Shown here: positions 10,986 to 20,997 of the stretch, in pieces
Numbering within the stretch: the stretch's first letter is position 1
Layout of the letters: every line of letters starts with the position of its first letter
Source: a virus
Virus record (IMG/VR): IMGVR_UViG_3300029319_000036
Location: 35,059 to 62,308 of that record
Reading direction: 5' to 3' (one strand)
DNA length: 27,250 nucleotides
Notes under the pieces: generated by a model
Seen by the model: only the letters and a program-made list of their open reading frames with translations
Told to the model about the DNA's origin: nothing
Database searches by the model: none
Program-made: the position numbers and the translations under genes

Positions 10986-10997
10986 TGTTTAACTAAA
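10986..10997 (+). promoter_or_regulatory. Leader motif TGTTTAACTAAA before the 11008 gene
   Basis: This 12-mer is identical to 10615-10626 and 12820-12831, always 9-11 nt before an ATG. It probably combines the -7/start-site region with an A-rich translation leader. No good -33 box was found here, so transcription may come through the preceding structured element. Confidence 0.4.
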
Positions 10998-11007
10998 ACT
11001 TATTATT

Positions 11008-11361
11008 ATGGATTTATTACAAATTATTACAGGTTTACTTTGTGTCGGCGCTATCGTATGTTTAGCTTACCAAATCAAAGAACTACATCATGCGTTTAAG
11101 AACACAGATAACTTCAAAGACTTTTTATCTAATAATGATTATGACAATCAAAAACTAAAAGTAGAGTTAGATATATTAGAAGACAAATATCGTTCATTAC
11201 AAAAAGAATATAATGAACTTAATCATATATCTGGTATAACTGGTAAGGAAGACGAAGAAACAATTGACCGTCTTAAAGATGAAAATCGTAAACTTAAAGA
11301 AAAATTAGATTATTTAATTAATGCAAATCAAAATCTTTATAAAAATCTTACAGATAAATAA
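11008..11361 (+). CDS. Membrane-anchored coiled-coil protein
   Basis: 117 residues. Residues 3-22 (LLQIITGLLCVGAIVCLAYQ) form one hydrophobic transmembrane segment. Residues about 45-112 are a charged heptad-type coiled coil (LKVELDILEDKYRSLQKEY...). The topology is probably N-out/C-in or a signal-anchor with a long soluble helix. This is the shape of i-spanins and of some early membrane-located phage proteins; location in the early block makes lysis less likely. Followed at once by an intrinsic terminator, so it is the last gene of its unit. Confidence 0.65.
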   Translation: MDLLQIITGLLCVGAIVCLAYQIKELHHAFKNTDNFKDFLSNNDYDNQKLKVELDILEDKYRSLQKEYNELNHISGITGKEDEETIDRLKDENRKLKEKLDYLINANQNLYKNLTDK

Positions 11362-11396: not shown

Positions 11397-11454
11397 TTCA
11401 CTATCATTATGACAAGTATTGTAAGGTGGGTGGACTCTAAGTATGCACAGTAGT
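11397..11454 (+). repeat. Intergenic repeat, copy 1
   Basis: TTCACTATCATTATG (11397-11411) followed after 31 nt by ATGCACAGTAGT (11443-11454). Both parts recur in the same order at 12741-12789 with one difference each. Confidence 0.55.
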
Positions 11455-11694
11455 GTACAATTTTATACGCTTTCAGCGGTTGTACCTGCGGTACGGCTTG
11501 TTTTACAGCACTAAAGTGCTAAAATTTTGTAGTTTTTCTTTGTACAAGCGTGTGTACGATATACTATTTTCGTCTATAATTCTTGTTATTAAGAATTCTT
11601 GCAGAATTGCTTTGCAGTACTTGTATATTGTTTAGGTGTTTTGCATGGTTTGTGTGTACCAGTTGTCCCACTCCCGCCCAAGTTACGAAAAATT

Positions 11695-11709
11695 TTTGAC
11701 ATTGTCAAA
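11695..11709 (+). repeat. Inverted repeat TTTGAC-ATT-GTCAAA
   Basis: A perfect 6+3+6 dyad inside the non-coding region. Size and symmetry are those of an operator for a small dimeric regulator, but no second copy was noticed. Confidence 0.35.
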
Positions 11710-11908
11710 TGGTCTTGTGTTCTTTTTTCATTTCAGTATACTATTTGTACAATTTGTGCTGTATTGCTATTTTGTAAAGTTTTGTTGTTTTCTGTTGTGT
11801 AAGTTGTTTTGTACTAGTTACGTACTTTGATATAGTGCTAGCCTACAGCTTATATATATACAATCACGGATTCATCAGTAGCCTTGCGAACAACTGAAGC
11901 ACCAGATA

Positions 11909-11917
11909 TGTGGATAA
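11909..11917 (-). promoter_or_regulatory. Exact DnaA box
   Basis: The minus strand reads TTATCCACA, the classical 9-bp DnaA box. It lies at the end of the 600-bp non-coding region. A single box is weak evidence for an origin, but this window also encodes a DnaA-domain-IV-like protein (23082-23534). Confidence 0.4.
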
Positions 11918-12002
11918 ACTATCAATATTTTTCATTATTATTTATTACTCAGTAGAGTTCAGCTTTTGTTGTTCTCTACTGTTTAATCAAAAATTATATG
12001 TT

Positions 12003-12658: not shown

Positions 12659-12700
12659 AAGGGGAACTACTATTAATTTAGTATGTTCCTCTTTTTTTTT
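12659..12700 (+). terminator. Intrinsic terminator
   Basis: AGGGGAAC-TACT and AGTA-t-GTTCCTCT form a long stem with a short AT loop, followed by nine T. Ends the unit containing 12003-12649. Confidence 0.9.
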
Positions 12701-12740
12701 AAGGTGTTCACTTCGTTCACGGGTTAACGCCTTCGGCGTG

Positions 12741-12789
12741 TTCACTATCATCATGCTCGGTAGTGGTTGCCACTTACATGCACGGTAGT
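12741..12789 (+). repeat. Intergenic repeat, copy 2
   Basis: TTCACTATCATCATG (12741-12755) and ATGCACGGTAGT (12778-12789) repeat the pair seen at 11397-11454. Just upstream (12705-12742) are three GTTCAC copies and a small hairpin ACGCC/GGCGT (12727-12739). Confidence 0.5.
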
Positions 12790-12819
12790 TTATTTTGTTG
12801 TTGTGTGGCGTTTTGCTTT

Positions 12820-12831
12820 TGTTTAACTAAA
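12820..12831 (+). promoter_or_regulatory. Leader motif TGTTTAACTAAA before the 12841 gene
   Basis: Third copy of the 12-mer, 9 nt before ATG. The overlapping TAAATTTA (12828-12835) is one base from TAnnTTTG and sits 5 nt before the ATG. A TTTTGTTGTTGT stretch identical to that at 10599-10610 is found at 12793-12804, but its spacing is too long for a standard -33. Confidence 0.45.
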
Positions 12832-12840
12832 TTTATAGCC

Positions 12841-13038
12841 ATGAAAGAAATATACGCAATAATACAATCTACCGATAACGGTAAGCACGAAAAAGAACAA
12901 TTAGTTGACAATACGCTTTATGAAAACTTTAGTGAAGCATTAGAGCAACTAGAACTAATATATGATACAGTTGACATGTCAGATGATGATACATACATTC
13001 AAATATCTTACCATATAGCTACATATAATTTAGTTTAA
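12841..13038 (+). CDS. Small acidic early protein, unknown
   Basis: 65 residues from ATG at 12841 (MKEIYAIIQSTDNGKHEKE...). The open frame extends upstream to 12763, but the repeated leader motif and the -7-like box fix the start at 12841. Acidic (DTVDMSDDDTY), mixed alpha/beta, no family recognised. It is followed directly by the structured RNA region and may share its transcript. Confidence 0.6.
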   Translation: MKEIYAIIQSTDNGKHEKEQLVDNTLYENFSEALEQLELIYDTVDMSDDDTYIQISYHIATYNLV

Positions 13039-13041
13039 ACA

Positions 13042-13103
13042 TACAGGGTGGACTTTTCCGTAAGGTGGTCAGGGCATGATTGAAGCCTATCATACACCCT
13101 GTA
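13042..13103 (+). ncRNA. Structured element 1
   Basis: TACAGGGTG (13042-13050) pairs with CACCCTGTA (13095-13103), 9 bp. The interior has TCCGTAA (13057-13063), TGATTGAAGCC (13077-13087) and the optional hairpin ATGAT/ATCAT. The interior core is shared with the element at 16979-17062. Confidence 0.6.
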
Positions 13104-13109
13104 ACTTAC

Positions 13110-13203
13110 ACAGGGTCGCCTTAGCCGTAAGGTCTGGCAAAAAAAATGTTATTGTTTCTTTTAAGATTTTCATTCAATAGCATTAGAGGTTAACAGGCCC
13201 TGT
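13110..13203 (+). ncRNA. Structured element 2, two hairpins in a closing stem
   Basis: ACAGGGTC (13110-13117) pairs with GGCCCTGT (13196-13203). Inside are CCTT/AAGG around AGCCGT (13119-13132) and a 10-bp stem AATGTTATTG/CAATAGCATT (13145-13154 with 13175-13184). This is a three-way-junction plan. Its 5' arm can alternatively pair with the 3' arm of element 1 (ACCCTGT/ACAGGGT). Confidence 0.55.
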
Positions 13204-13205
13204 AA

Positions 13206-13377
13206 CTTATAAAAGAAGGCAGTCTTCTTAGCGATAAATAGTATCACTTCAAAGATTCTTGCGAGTCCGTTAAAATTGATTTTTCATTGATACTACGCCG
13301 TAATAGAAGTTCGCATAATTAAATCGCACTTTTATTTTATTTATGTTTAGTTTCACTGCCTTCTTTTACCTTATAAG
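13206..13377 (+). ncRNA. Structured element 3, closed by a perfect 14-bp stem
   Basis: TAAAAGAAGGCAGT (13210-13223) pairs perfectly with ACTGCCTTCTTTTA (13355-13368), extended by CTTA/TAAG outside a small bulge. Inside, GCG/CGC and TAGTATCA/TGATACTA (13239-13246 with 13278-13285) carry a hairpin GATTC-ttgc-GAGTC (13254-13267). Nested compensating stems of this size in AT-rich DNA are strong evidence for a folded RNA. Confidence 0.65.
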
Positions 13378-13397
13378 ATAAGACTATTAGGTTACAG

Positions 13398-13449
13398 AAT
13401 AAGACACAATGTGTCCTCTATCTGTAGCCAATGTCTTATTATTTTTTTT
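13398..13449 (+). terminator. Intrinsic terminator or attenuator at the end of the RNA chain
   Basis: AATAAGACA (13398-13406) pairs with TGTCTTATT (13432-13440), followed by ATTTTTTTT. A competing fold pairs GGTTACAG (13390-13397) with CTGTAGCC (13422-13429) around GACAC/GTGTC (13403-13415) and would break the terminator stem, so this may be a regulated terminator for the gene at 13476. Confidence 0.65.
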
Positions 13450-13475
13450 ACTAATTATTAATTAATATTTACATC

Positions 13476-13814
13476 ATGAAAAAATTACTTAACTCTATTA
13501 ATTTATTGATAGCTGATTATCTTTCAGGTAAAGATAAAGTTATCATACCCAAATCAGAACTTAATTTGTTTATTAAACAATGTGAAGATGATTTACATGC
13601 TTTAAAATATGAAATTCAAAACATAACCATAGACGGTAGTTCTATTAGTGGCATGATACAAGACGCAGTTGCAGACGCTATAGATTTTCGAAGTGATGAC
13701 TTTGAACAGTATATAGAAGGCTGTGGTATTTGTGATGATATGGTCATAGGTTTAAAATCAAAACTAGATAAGTTTAAAACTAAAAACAGTTTACATGAAA
13801 ATACTAATAAATAA
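13476..13814 (+). CDS. Unknown early protein
   Basis: 112 residues, helical and acidic in its second half (MIQDAVADAIDFRSDDFEQYI), ending Lys/Asn-rich. First gene after the structured RNA region, preceded by an AT-only stretch. It overlaps the next gene by 20 nt. No motif or family recognised. Confidence 0.55.
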   Translation: MKKLLNSINLLIADYLSGKDKVIIPKSELNLFIKQCEDDLHALKYEIQNITIDGSSISGMIQDAVADAIDFRSDDFEQYIEGCGICDDMVIGLKSKLDKFKTKNSLHENTNK

Positions 13815-14125: not shown

Positions 14126-14662
14126 ATGGAAAAATTAAAAACAGGAGTAATGGCTTATGCATTAAAACAAATGCTAAGCCATCCAAATCAATTGATTGAA
14201 GATAATGTTAATCAAAAAGATGTCCAAGAAGCTATTTATCAATTAGAAGATATAGTTGAAGGCAAAGCTTTTCTTAAAAACAAATCTAGAAATAATAAAT
14301 ATGTAGACAATAATGTACATATGCGTCTTAGAGACATAGTAGATTTAATTAAGATGAAGTTAAAAATATCAGATTATACTAATTACTCTTCAAACCCAGT
14401 AATTACTTTAGCCAGTTGTGAAAGAAAAAAGATTAATACAAAAGTGTCAATTACTTATCCTACACAATATGAGCAAGATACCCTTTCTAATCAAAGGATG
14501 TTTGCTTCTTCATATCTAGTTAACCAATTAGTTACAATTTTACTTCCATATACAAGCAAAGGAGATTTTGCTGATTGTAAAAAAAGTTTTGAAATGGAAA
14601 TAAAACGTAGAAATGAATTGGAATTGAAAAAAGAAGAATTGATAAACGAAGCTGAAGTATGA
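14126..14662 (+). CDS. Unknown protein upstream of the amidotransferase
   Basis: 178 residues. N-terminal helical part with KTGVMAYALKQML, a middle Lys/Asn-rich part, a region with Cys112 and several Thr/Ser, and a C-terminal charged helix (EMEIKRRNELELKKEELINE). ATG is preceded by an A-rich tract. Its stop overlaps the next start as ATGA at 14659, linking it to the amidotransferase-amidoligase pair; it may be a partner or substrate carrier of that system. No family recognised. Confidence 0.6.
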   Translation: MEKLKTGVMAYALKQMLSHPNQLIEDNVNQKDVQEAIYQLEDIVEGKAFLKNKSRNNKYVDNNVHMRLRDIVDLIKMKLKISDYTNYSSNPVITLASCERKKINTKVSITYPTQYEQDTLSNQRMFASSYLVNQLVTILLPYTSKGDFADCKKSFEMEIKRRNELELKKEELINEAEV

Positions 14663-15660
14663 TACTAGATGAGTTTGGGCCAGGGGGCGTACCTTATGAC
14701 GCAATTAATGATTATTATTTAACACTTAAAAACGAAAAAAAAATGTGTGGATTAGTTGGATTTAGTGGTAAAGCTGATACAAGTATATTTAAGGCTTTAC
14801 ATTTACTAGCAGATAACGACGATAGAGGCGGACACTCTACAGGGTTATATGCAAACAATAAAATATACAAGACAACAGATGAGTCTTTAAACATTCTGCC
14901 TATGCTTGATACTAATGTAACAGGCAGTGTTCTAATTGGACACACAAGATTTGCCACACATGGTGAACATACTGTAGAAAATGCACATCCTTTTCAATAC
15001 AAAAACATTATAGGTGCACACAATGGTGTACTAAACAATTACAAAGAAGTAGGCGAAAAGTTTGGCATTAAACCAACTACAGTAGATTCTCAAATGATAT
15101 TTAAATTATTAGCACAAGAAAAAAATGATAAACATCTAGGTCTCTTTGGGGGCGCAAAGAATGTTATATACACAAAAGGTGATAATAAATTATATGTATA
15201 TCGTAGAGACAATCCATTGTATGGCGTAGAAACAGAAGATGGATACTACTTTAGTTCTTTGAAAGAAGGTCTAAAGAATATAGCAGGCAAAAACAAAGTA
15301 AAAGAAATTCCTCAGAATAAACTTTATATACTTGAAAATGGTAAGCTAATCAAAACTATTAAGATTAAGCACAAGCCAGTTCCTGCTAAATCTACTGTTA
15401 ATACAGATTGGAGAAGCTATGGTAATTATTCTAACAGAGATTGGGGTTACTTGGGTAATATAGATAAAGATGATTATTCTTTTGAAGATGAGCTTAAACA
15501 TAATGAATATGAAGAGTTTGAAAGAATGCAAGATTATGCATCATTTATTTATGAAATATATACTGAAGCTCACAAAAGAGGTTTTACAGAAGAAGAATCT
15601 GAAAAGCTTCTTGATTTGTATAACCAATTAAACCAATTCTCTTATGACTACTACTACTAA
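14659..15660 (+). CDS. Class II glutamine amidotransferase
   Basis: The Ntn-type glutaminase domain releases ammonia from glutamine for transfer to an acceptor. MCGLVGFSG gives the catalytic Cys directly after a Met; further family blocks are RGGHSTGL, IGHTRFATHG and GAHNGVLNNY. There is no second synthetase domain: after ~190 residues of GATase the protein ends in a Lys- then Asp/Glu/Tyr-rich tail. The 333-codon frame begins at 14659 with an ATGA overlap, but the catalytic Cys needs a free N-terminus, so either translation starts at 14743 (after an A8 tract) or the first 28 residues are removed as a propeptide, as in PurF. It overlaps the amidoligase gene by 17 nt. Confidence 0.88.
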   Translation: MILDEFGPGGVPYDAINDYYLTLKNEKKMCGLVGFSGKADTSIFKALHLLADNDDRGGHSTGLYANNKIYKTTDESLNILPMLDTNVTGSVLIGHTRFATHGEHTVENAHPFQYKNIIGAHNGVLNNYKEVGEKFGIKPTTVDSQMIFKLLAQEKNDKHLGLFGGAKNVIYTKGDNKLYVYRRDNPLYGVETEDGYYFSSLKEGLKNIAGKNKVKEIPQNKLYILENGKLIKTIKIKHKPVPAKSTVNTDWRSYGNYSNRDWGYLGNIDKDDYSFEDELKHNEYEEFERMQDYASFIYEIYTEAHKRGFTEEESEKLLDLYNQLNQFSYDYYY

Positions 15661-17108: not shown

Positions 17109-17429
17109 ATGGATAAATTACAAAAACAATTATGGTTCGATACTTTTTGGAAAGAGTATCCTAAAAAGGTAGGTAAAAAACAATGCAAGACATACTGGTC
17201 TAAACTAAAGATGTCGGCAGAGTTATTCACTATCATCATGGAAAGTTTGGTTAATCAAAACGTCCTGCGTGCAAAATATGCACAGAACAAGATGTGGTAC
17301 CCCAATCCTCCAGACCCTATACGTTGGCTTAAATATGAGCGTTGGGAAGATGAATTACCACCCATAGACATTAAGGAAGTTAAACAGGTTTATACTAAAC
17401 CAAAATACAAAGATTACGATGAAAGATGA
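17109..17429 (+). CDS. Replication-initiation-type protein, putative helicase loader fragment
   Basis: 106 residues. FDTFWKEYPKKVGKKQCKTYWSKLK near the start and PDPIRWLKYERWEDE near residue 68-82 are the F-W-x-x-YP-x-K ... WL....W-x-[DE]-E signatures found at the C-terminus of many phage replication proteins that sit before DnaB helicases. Here the module stands alone, without the usual N-terminal DNA-binding winged helix. First gene of the operon with its own consensus promoter. The likely job is recruiting or loading the helicase encoded 160 bp downstream. Confidence 0.65.
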   Translation: MDKLQKQLWFDTFWKEYPKKVGKKQCKTYWSKLKMSAELFTIIMESLVNQNVLRAKYAQNKMWYPNPPDPIRWLKYERWEDELPPIDIKEVKQVYTKPKYKDYDER

Positions 17430-20593: not shown

Positions 20594-20997
20594 TGATATA
20601 CAAGCACCGAGCTTTTATTAAAGATGGCAAGGTCACTTTTCAAAACAGAGAAAAGTTTGACAACCACATGCTTAATTACGAGGGAAAGACTGTAGTTATT
20701 ACAGTCAGGGAGCAAAAGGAAAGACGAAGTCTTAACTTAAACTCGTATTATTGGGCGGTGGTTGTCAAGCTACTATCTGAAGAAACAGGTTATAATAAAG
20801 ATGAAATGCACGAAGTTTTGAAGTCTATGTTCTTAAGAACTAAATACCAAATAAAAGGTATATGGATACACGGTACTAAATCTACCACAAAGCTTACTAA
20901 TGAGGAGATGCAAGCGTACATTGAAGAATGTAAATCGTTTGCGTCTACCACGTTAGGTCTTTATATCCCTGACCCAAATGAAGTTGAATATGAATAG
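20593..20997 (+). CDS. NinB-like recombination protein
   Basis: 134 residues. RRSLNLNSYYWAVVVKLLSEETGYNKDEMHEVLKSMF carries the pattern R-S-x-x-x-N-x-YYW ... H-x-x-[LF]-K-x-x-F of NinB (Orf) proteins, which bind single-stranded DNA and act with RecA/SSB-type machinery. The ending LYIPDP fits this family. It sits between the SSB candidate and RusA-type resolvase, as in lambdoid nin regions. Translationally coupled on both sides. Confidence 0.75.
   Translation: MIYKHRAFIKDGKVTFQNREKFDNHMLNYEGKTVVITVREQKERRSLNLNSYYWAVVVKLLSEETGYNKDEMHEVLKSMFLRTKYQIKGIWIHGTKSTTKLTNEEMQAYIEECKSFASTTLGLYIPDPNEVEYE

Follow-up and report, generated by a model that had tools for sequence, protein, structure and literature searches.

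A structured RNA region of apparently exchangeable modules behind a small phage gene

Structured phage RNAs are few, and most of those described are without a known function. In phage HK022 the put RNAs form a pair of hairpins close to the transcript's 5' end, and as nascent RNA they alter RNA polymerase. Type III toxin-antitoxin loci (e.g. ToxI) carry tandem near-identical RNA repeats with the toxin gene directly after the terminator, and the tRNA and stable RNA clusters of phage T4 are processed multi-RNA transcripts. GOLLD and ROOL are ornate RNAs of phages and prophages, i.e. long, highly structured non-coding RNAs of unknown function, and GOLLD combines a constant 3' region with a less constant 5' region (PMC12286853). 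The RNA region analysed here resembles GOLLD and ROOL as a highly structured phage ncRNA, and it shares with GOLLD the constant 3' part; it differs in being much smaller, in being built from separable modules that share a constant linker and follow a small gene, and in having no Rfam match. While GOLLD and ROOL often lie near tRNA genes, no tRNA or tmRNA gene was found in the window, by which we mean the whole 27,250-nt stretch of DNA analysed, which forms the right-hand end of a virus record of 62,308 bases (IMG/VR IMGVR_UViG_3300029319_000036, positions 35,059 to 62,308) in which the region occurs as a single copy.

The terminase is closest to those of crAss-like phages (~28% identity) and the portal protein matches PHROG 6547; the source phage is a distant relative of the crAss-like group. 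The RNA region sits in a rightward gene block, ~2 kb past the turn of gene direction at ~10986-11008, among small genes and with amidotransferase, amidoligase and DnaB genes downstream. Because the virion RNA polymerase of crAss-like phages transcribes regulatory and replication genes (PMC10136315), this block may be expressed early. The preceding gene is closed by a plain hairpin with a T-run (~12660-12699), followed in the window by a promoter-like motif at 12741, the small gene p65, the RNA elements e1, e2, e3 and T, and the gene at 13476 (Table 1). We compared this locus with four close relatives (L002, L003, L004 and L005) and with farther relatives found by scanning with a neighbouring ATPase (65-98% identity in the ATPase protein); scans with the amidoligase and with p65 for further relatives yielded no new contigs.

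Table 1. Features of the p65 unit and its RNA elements, in window positions
Feature	Position	Strand	Description
Promoter-like motif TTCACTATCATCATGCTCGGTAG	12741-12763	+	~78 nt upstream of p65; conserved
p65, 65-aa small gene	12841-13038	+	precedes the modules; dN/dS 0.09-0.24 among distinct relatives
e1	13042-13103	+	9-bp closing stem; three-way junction, second hairpin variable
e1 inner part	within 13042-13103	+	GAC/GUC stem; CC-GUAA-GG hairpin (GNRA loop)
Linker AACTTA(C)	13104-13109	+	between e1 and e2
e2	13110-13203	+	closing stem ACAGGGT as in e1; GCC/GGC stem; CC-GUAA-GG hairpin; long variable hairpin
Linker AACTTATAA	13204-13212	+	last bases able to extend the e3 stem
e3	13210-13368	+	14-bp closing stem; conserved core ~13224-13309; accessory hairpins missing in L002
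Linker CCTTATAA	13369-13376	+	between e3 and T
T	13377-13440	+	19-pair stem; constant bulges C13384 and A13389; variable apical loop
U-run	13442-13449	+	eight T; turns T into an intrinsic terminator (window, L002, L003 and L004)

An earlier note on the window had described a 437-nt gene-free gap almost filled with inverted repeats. The gap is there, between the p65 stop at 13038 and the next ATG at 13476, and so are the closing stems (13042-13050/13095-13103, 9 bp; 13110-13117/13196-13203, 8 bp with one U-G pair; 13210-13223/13355-13368, 14 bp), the 12-nt repeat CCCTGTAACTTA at both junctions (13097-13108 and 13198-13209) and the sequence CCGTAA in each of e1, e2 and e3. The note had also placed a terminator at 13398-13449; it was right about the terminator but not about its start, as the conserved stem begins at 13377 (arms 13377-13383, 13385-13388 and 13390-13397, paired with 13422-13440), while the pairing from 13398 (AATAAGACA/TGTCTTATT) is a local alternative that is missing in relatives with a long T loop. 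A stable hairpin followed by a U-run, as in an intrinsic terminator, was found for T in the window and in L002, L003 and L004; the U-run is weak in L005 and missing in L066 and L071. A tentative pseudoknot in e1 (13076-13080/13089-13093) is intact in the window and L002, and out of register in L004. From the shared closing stem and CC-GUAA-GG hairpin we take e2 to be a diverged relative of e1.

The predicted fold of the 431-nt region is clearly stronger than that of dinucleotide shuffles (-118.4 versus -84.7 ± 5.6 kcal/mol; z -6.06; none of 100 shuffles was as good), a comparison proposed in the note. The same is true of the single elements, with z of -3.5, -3.7, -4.2 and -5.9 for e1, e2, e3 and T, each below all 200 of its own shuffles, and of the counterpart in L002 (z -6.7). 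Among the 66 plus-strand tiles of 408 nt in the window, the tile 13057-13464 is the lowest (z -6.8; tile mean -1.6, sd 1.8). Sliding windows of 160 nt did not single out the region because they cut the modules. The note had asked for covariation in homologues; e1/e2, e3 and T do show compensatory changes, which are not formally significant as covariation, since the sequences are too few (seven for T, seven for e1/e2 and three for e3). In e1/e2 these changes are GC/CG in the closing stem and AU/CG in the inner stem, the latter misaligned by MAFFT, so that its pairs were counted by hand on arms of our own choice, which favours the drawn structure. The e3 changes are UA/CG via UG and GC/UA, and those in T are AU/GC and UG/CG/UA. 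In the T alignment 99.2% of the pairs are standard, versus 33-52% with the partners slid; column shuffling attained its covariation score 13 times in 500, and the one pair in which both sides changed does not stand out, since 253 of 500 shuffles do as well. A conserved reading frame, which would speak against RNA, was not seen in the relatives. The pattern of changes favours plus-strand RNA over DNA hairpins, because the G-U pairs occur in the plus sense, the GUAA loop and the bulges are constant and the T covariance model scores 73-92 bits on the plus strand and at most 39 on the opposite one.

The note's further suggestion, that this is possibly a structured phage ncRNA of no family known so far, is borne out by the fold, the compensatory changes and the searches. 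No Rfam 15 family reached its gathering score in the window or the relatives, and a relaxed Rfam search of 12700-13500 gave nothing up to E 1; a P14 match in L005 (E 0.56) lies far below the cut-off and was taken as chance. Named phages had no real match to the RNA region by DNA. In pattern scans of viral contigs the e1/e2 core and the linker were found only in contigs already known, and T additionally in those of L066 and L071; 29 other matches to the linker pattern were set aside as chance, as were, on inspection, seven matches in genome contigs. The T covariance model finds a single copy each in the window, L002-L005, L066 and L071, with no other site that convinces. We found no description of such an RNA array in the open-access literature. 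Structured phage ncRNAs are already known, and it is the exchangeable modules on a constant linker, together with T, that appear new.

The relatives differ in which modules they carry. While the window and L002 have e1-e2-e3-T, L004 has e1-e3-T and L003 has e1-T only; in L005 an e2-type module is followed by an unrelated module of ~340 nt and by T. Both p65 and T are kept in all four close relatives, and the joints have linkers of the AACTTATAA type. The large single-copy module in the place of e3 in L005 (L005:484-822; closing stem AAAAAGAGAG/CUCUCUUUUU) has no relative in the collection of named phages. Within modules, the outer stems and cores are constant among the close relatives and the inner hairpins differ: those of e1 and e2 vary, the accessory part of e3 is absent from L002 and the apical loop of T is short or long. 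Within a single 100-nt module (window e2 versus L005), the core is constant and the inner hairpin unalignable. Moreover, L002 and L003 differ by 3% in T and by 33% in e1, whereas the window and L002 differ by 3% in e1 and by 19% in T. Parts thus assort among the relatives, T being shared without e1 and e1 without T, and close relatives gain, lose and exchange modules as whole units; a deletion of e2 by recombination between the two 12-nt repeats would give exactly the order seen in L004. Comparison of the relatives thus shows structure, plus-strand RNA, modular gain and loss, and linkage to the small gene and its motif.

As in type III toxin-antitoxin loci, a row of folded RNA units is followed by a terminator and a gene. 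We rejected this class, as there are no near-identical repeats (e1 and e2 have just stem and core in common, and e3 is unrelated) and the following gene is not conserved, the 13476 gene being absent from this locus in L003, L005, L066 and L071. With the T4 clusters the region shares several compact RNAs in one phage transcript that could be released by cutting between them; it differs in the constant linker, the exchange of whole modules and the lack of any tRNA found here.

Among the farther relatives, T is kept in L066 and L071, its stem carrying an A-U to G-C change, and in both a further structured element, which ends in a U-run, follows the T that has none; hence T is more than a terminator. 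Before T, L066 has a closed-stem module of ~150 nt, preceded by a different small gene, and its p65 homologue (37% identical) comes after T. In L071, T stands directly behind the p65 homologue (28% identical) with no module between, and hence the modules are dispensable. In L069 no gene is evident between the motif and the closed-stem RNA that follows it, and the fold of this RNA beats shuffles only weakly (z -1.7). The L066 and L069 modules have T-like closing stems (AGTAAGAC/GTCTTACT), and no likeness was seen between their interiors. L060 and L067 have small genes at the corresponding place instead. The element directly after T, e6 (L066:3904-3982 and L071:4104-4182), has a T-rich tail and a core (GTAAGTAGCGGTTATTCACTCAG...GTAAGCTGCAGCTAAGCACGTG) identical in the two; compensatory changes number three in its outer stem and one in an inner stem. 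A third element, e7 (L059:313-395, L066:4380-4462 and L071:4199-4281; no Rfam match), has a hairpin CCACA-GGUAAG-UGUGG whose loop is able to kiss the CUUACC loop of the next terminator hairpin; its stems change with compensation and the loops remain complementary.

The motif upstream of p65 occurs at the equivalent site in L002-L005, L060, L067 and L071; L066 and L069 have diverged versions of it. In the window, TTCACTATCATNATG has three exact or near sites (11397, 12741 and 17226), versus 0.03 expected by chance; two of them lie directly after a terminator, and the one at 17226 falls within a coding gene ahead of dnaB. We regard it as a candidate phage-specific promoter. From the first copy to the gene at ~12004 runs a long stretch without a convincing gene (11410-12000) but with several hairpins, mostly alike in L003 and shorter in L002. 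The p65 product is predicted to fold as a small beta-beta-alpha-beta protein; its model gave no significant match in the PDB (best E 0.22, a 70-residue chain of a type I-C CRISPR-Cas3 entry) or among viral structures (best E 0.025). Behind T, the 13476 gene (p112, 13476-13814) is gained or lost among the relatives; dN/dS is 0.5-1.0 overall and 0.9-1.0 versus L002 and L004, the structure model of its product is of low confidence, and it is a possible host-interaction gene.

Structure, modularity and novelty of the RNA region are well supported by these results, and from them we infer its function. The reading that we prefer, though tentatively, is that the 3' part of the transcript is an array of exchangeable RNA modules that acts in trans as a stable ncRNA, binding host or phage factors early in infection. 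The transcription unit would run from the motif at 12741 through p65 and the linker-joined, independently folding modules to T, which would end the transcript. Whole modules would be gained, lost or replaced, recombination at the linker repeats and at the ends of the stems being the probable route, and selection would hold their core folds. The RNA might act intact or cut into single modules, in which case the single-stranded linkers are likelier sites than the stems. We favour action in trans because the modules differ widely between close relatives, because in L069 no gene seems to stand between the motif and the RNA, and because the neighbours change fast (dN/dS 0.5-1.0 for p112 and 0.4-0.8 for p178, versus 0.1-0.2 for p65). 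Rapid turnover is common at host-facing loci, and a host-facing role, e.g. host takeover or counter-defence, would fit the rapid change of modules and neighbouring genes. Promoter use, early timing, processing, abundance, trans action and the target are all what we infer. Antisense pairing of the module loops with the window did not exceed that of shuffles; e2 had the lowest fraction, 0.08. At this one locus the related phages amount to a natural set of deletions and swaps, with three modules, two, one or none before a constant T. Swapping modules would therefore test function directly, and phages may, as the locus suggests, trade RNA parts as they do small genes. Less probable is an array of self-contained RNA cassettes swapped between phages like small genes, with a constant cleavable linker, a dedicated promoter and a different host factor for each module.

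It seems to us unlikely that the modules act in cis as a 3' UTR of p65, shielding the mRNA end from exonucleases or tuning p65, with T terminating the message. The start of e1 only 4 nt past the p65 stop codon and the order of motif, gene, modules and T, kept in the close relatives, would suit such a role. However, a plain hairpin would suffice, as at the end of the preceding gene, L071 has the gene with T alone, and in L066 the gene before the module is not the p65 homologue. Still less probable are cis-acting antiterminators, in which nascent RNA would alter RNA polymerase so that part of it passes T into the 13476 gene and onward. There is no motif copy between T and 17226 in the window, so the genes past T need read-through or another promoter. 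The modules stand directly before a terminator and, like the put RNAs, are short structured elements in a presumably early phage transcript; a put-like action is possible. They differ from put in being varied, in lying behind a gene and in being absent from some relatives where T is present. Against it, L071 has T and a further terminator element but no module (although the part past T there may be served by a promoter of its own), T in L066 and L071 is without a U-run, and the modules of different relatives have no common core.

That the elements act as DNA, i.e. as inverted-repeat mobile elements or an origin-type hairpin array, we consider very improbable. The inverted-repeat ends, the clean gain and loss, the CTTATAA direct repeat that flanks the modules on both sides and a location close to where gene direction and GC skew switch would all fit, but a mobile element is unlikely, each genome having a single site with no further copy and the core and linker patterns occurring nowhere else in viral contigs. 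The plus-sense G-U pairs, together with the unchanging GNRA loop and bulges, speak for RNA. Finally, the note's idea of a multi-switch leader (a series of attenuators or riboswitches) controlling the 13476 gene is scarcely credible: that gene does follow the terminator by 26 nt, and the window allows an alternative pairing of the terminator arm (13398-13406/13432-13440), but the idea, and with it membership of the riboswitch or attenuator leaders, fails because the gene is missing at the locus in the four relatives named above, all of which keep T, while T terminates ahead of it in the window, L002, L003, L066 and L071 do not preserve the alternative pairing, and the conserved partner is instead p65, the upstream gene of the unit, which has a promoter-like motif of its own.

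Two other sites in the window drew our attention. At 14659-14742 the amidotransferase frame carries a near-invariant extension of 28 residues before MCGLVGFSG, the start expected for a class II enzyme; this is a candidate propeptide or separate small gene. Very low fold energies were observed at 20641-20960, inside and just past the NinB-like coding region (z -8.6 at 20641 and -5.7 at 20801).
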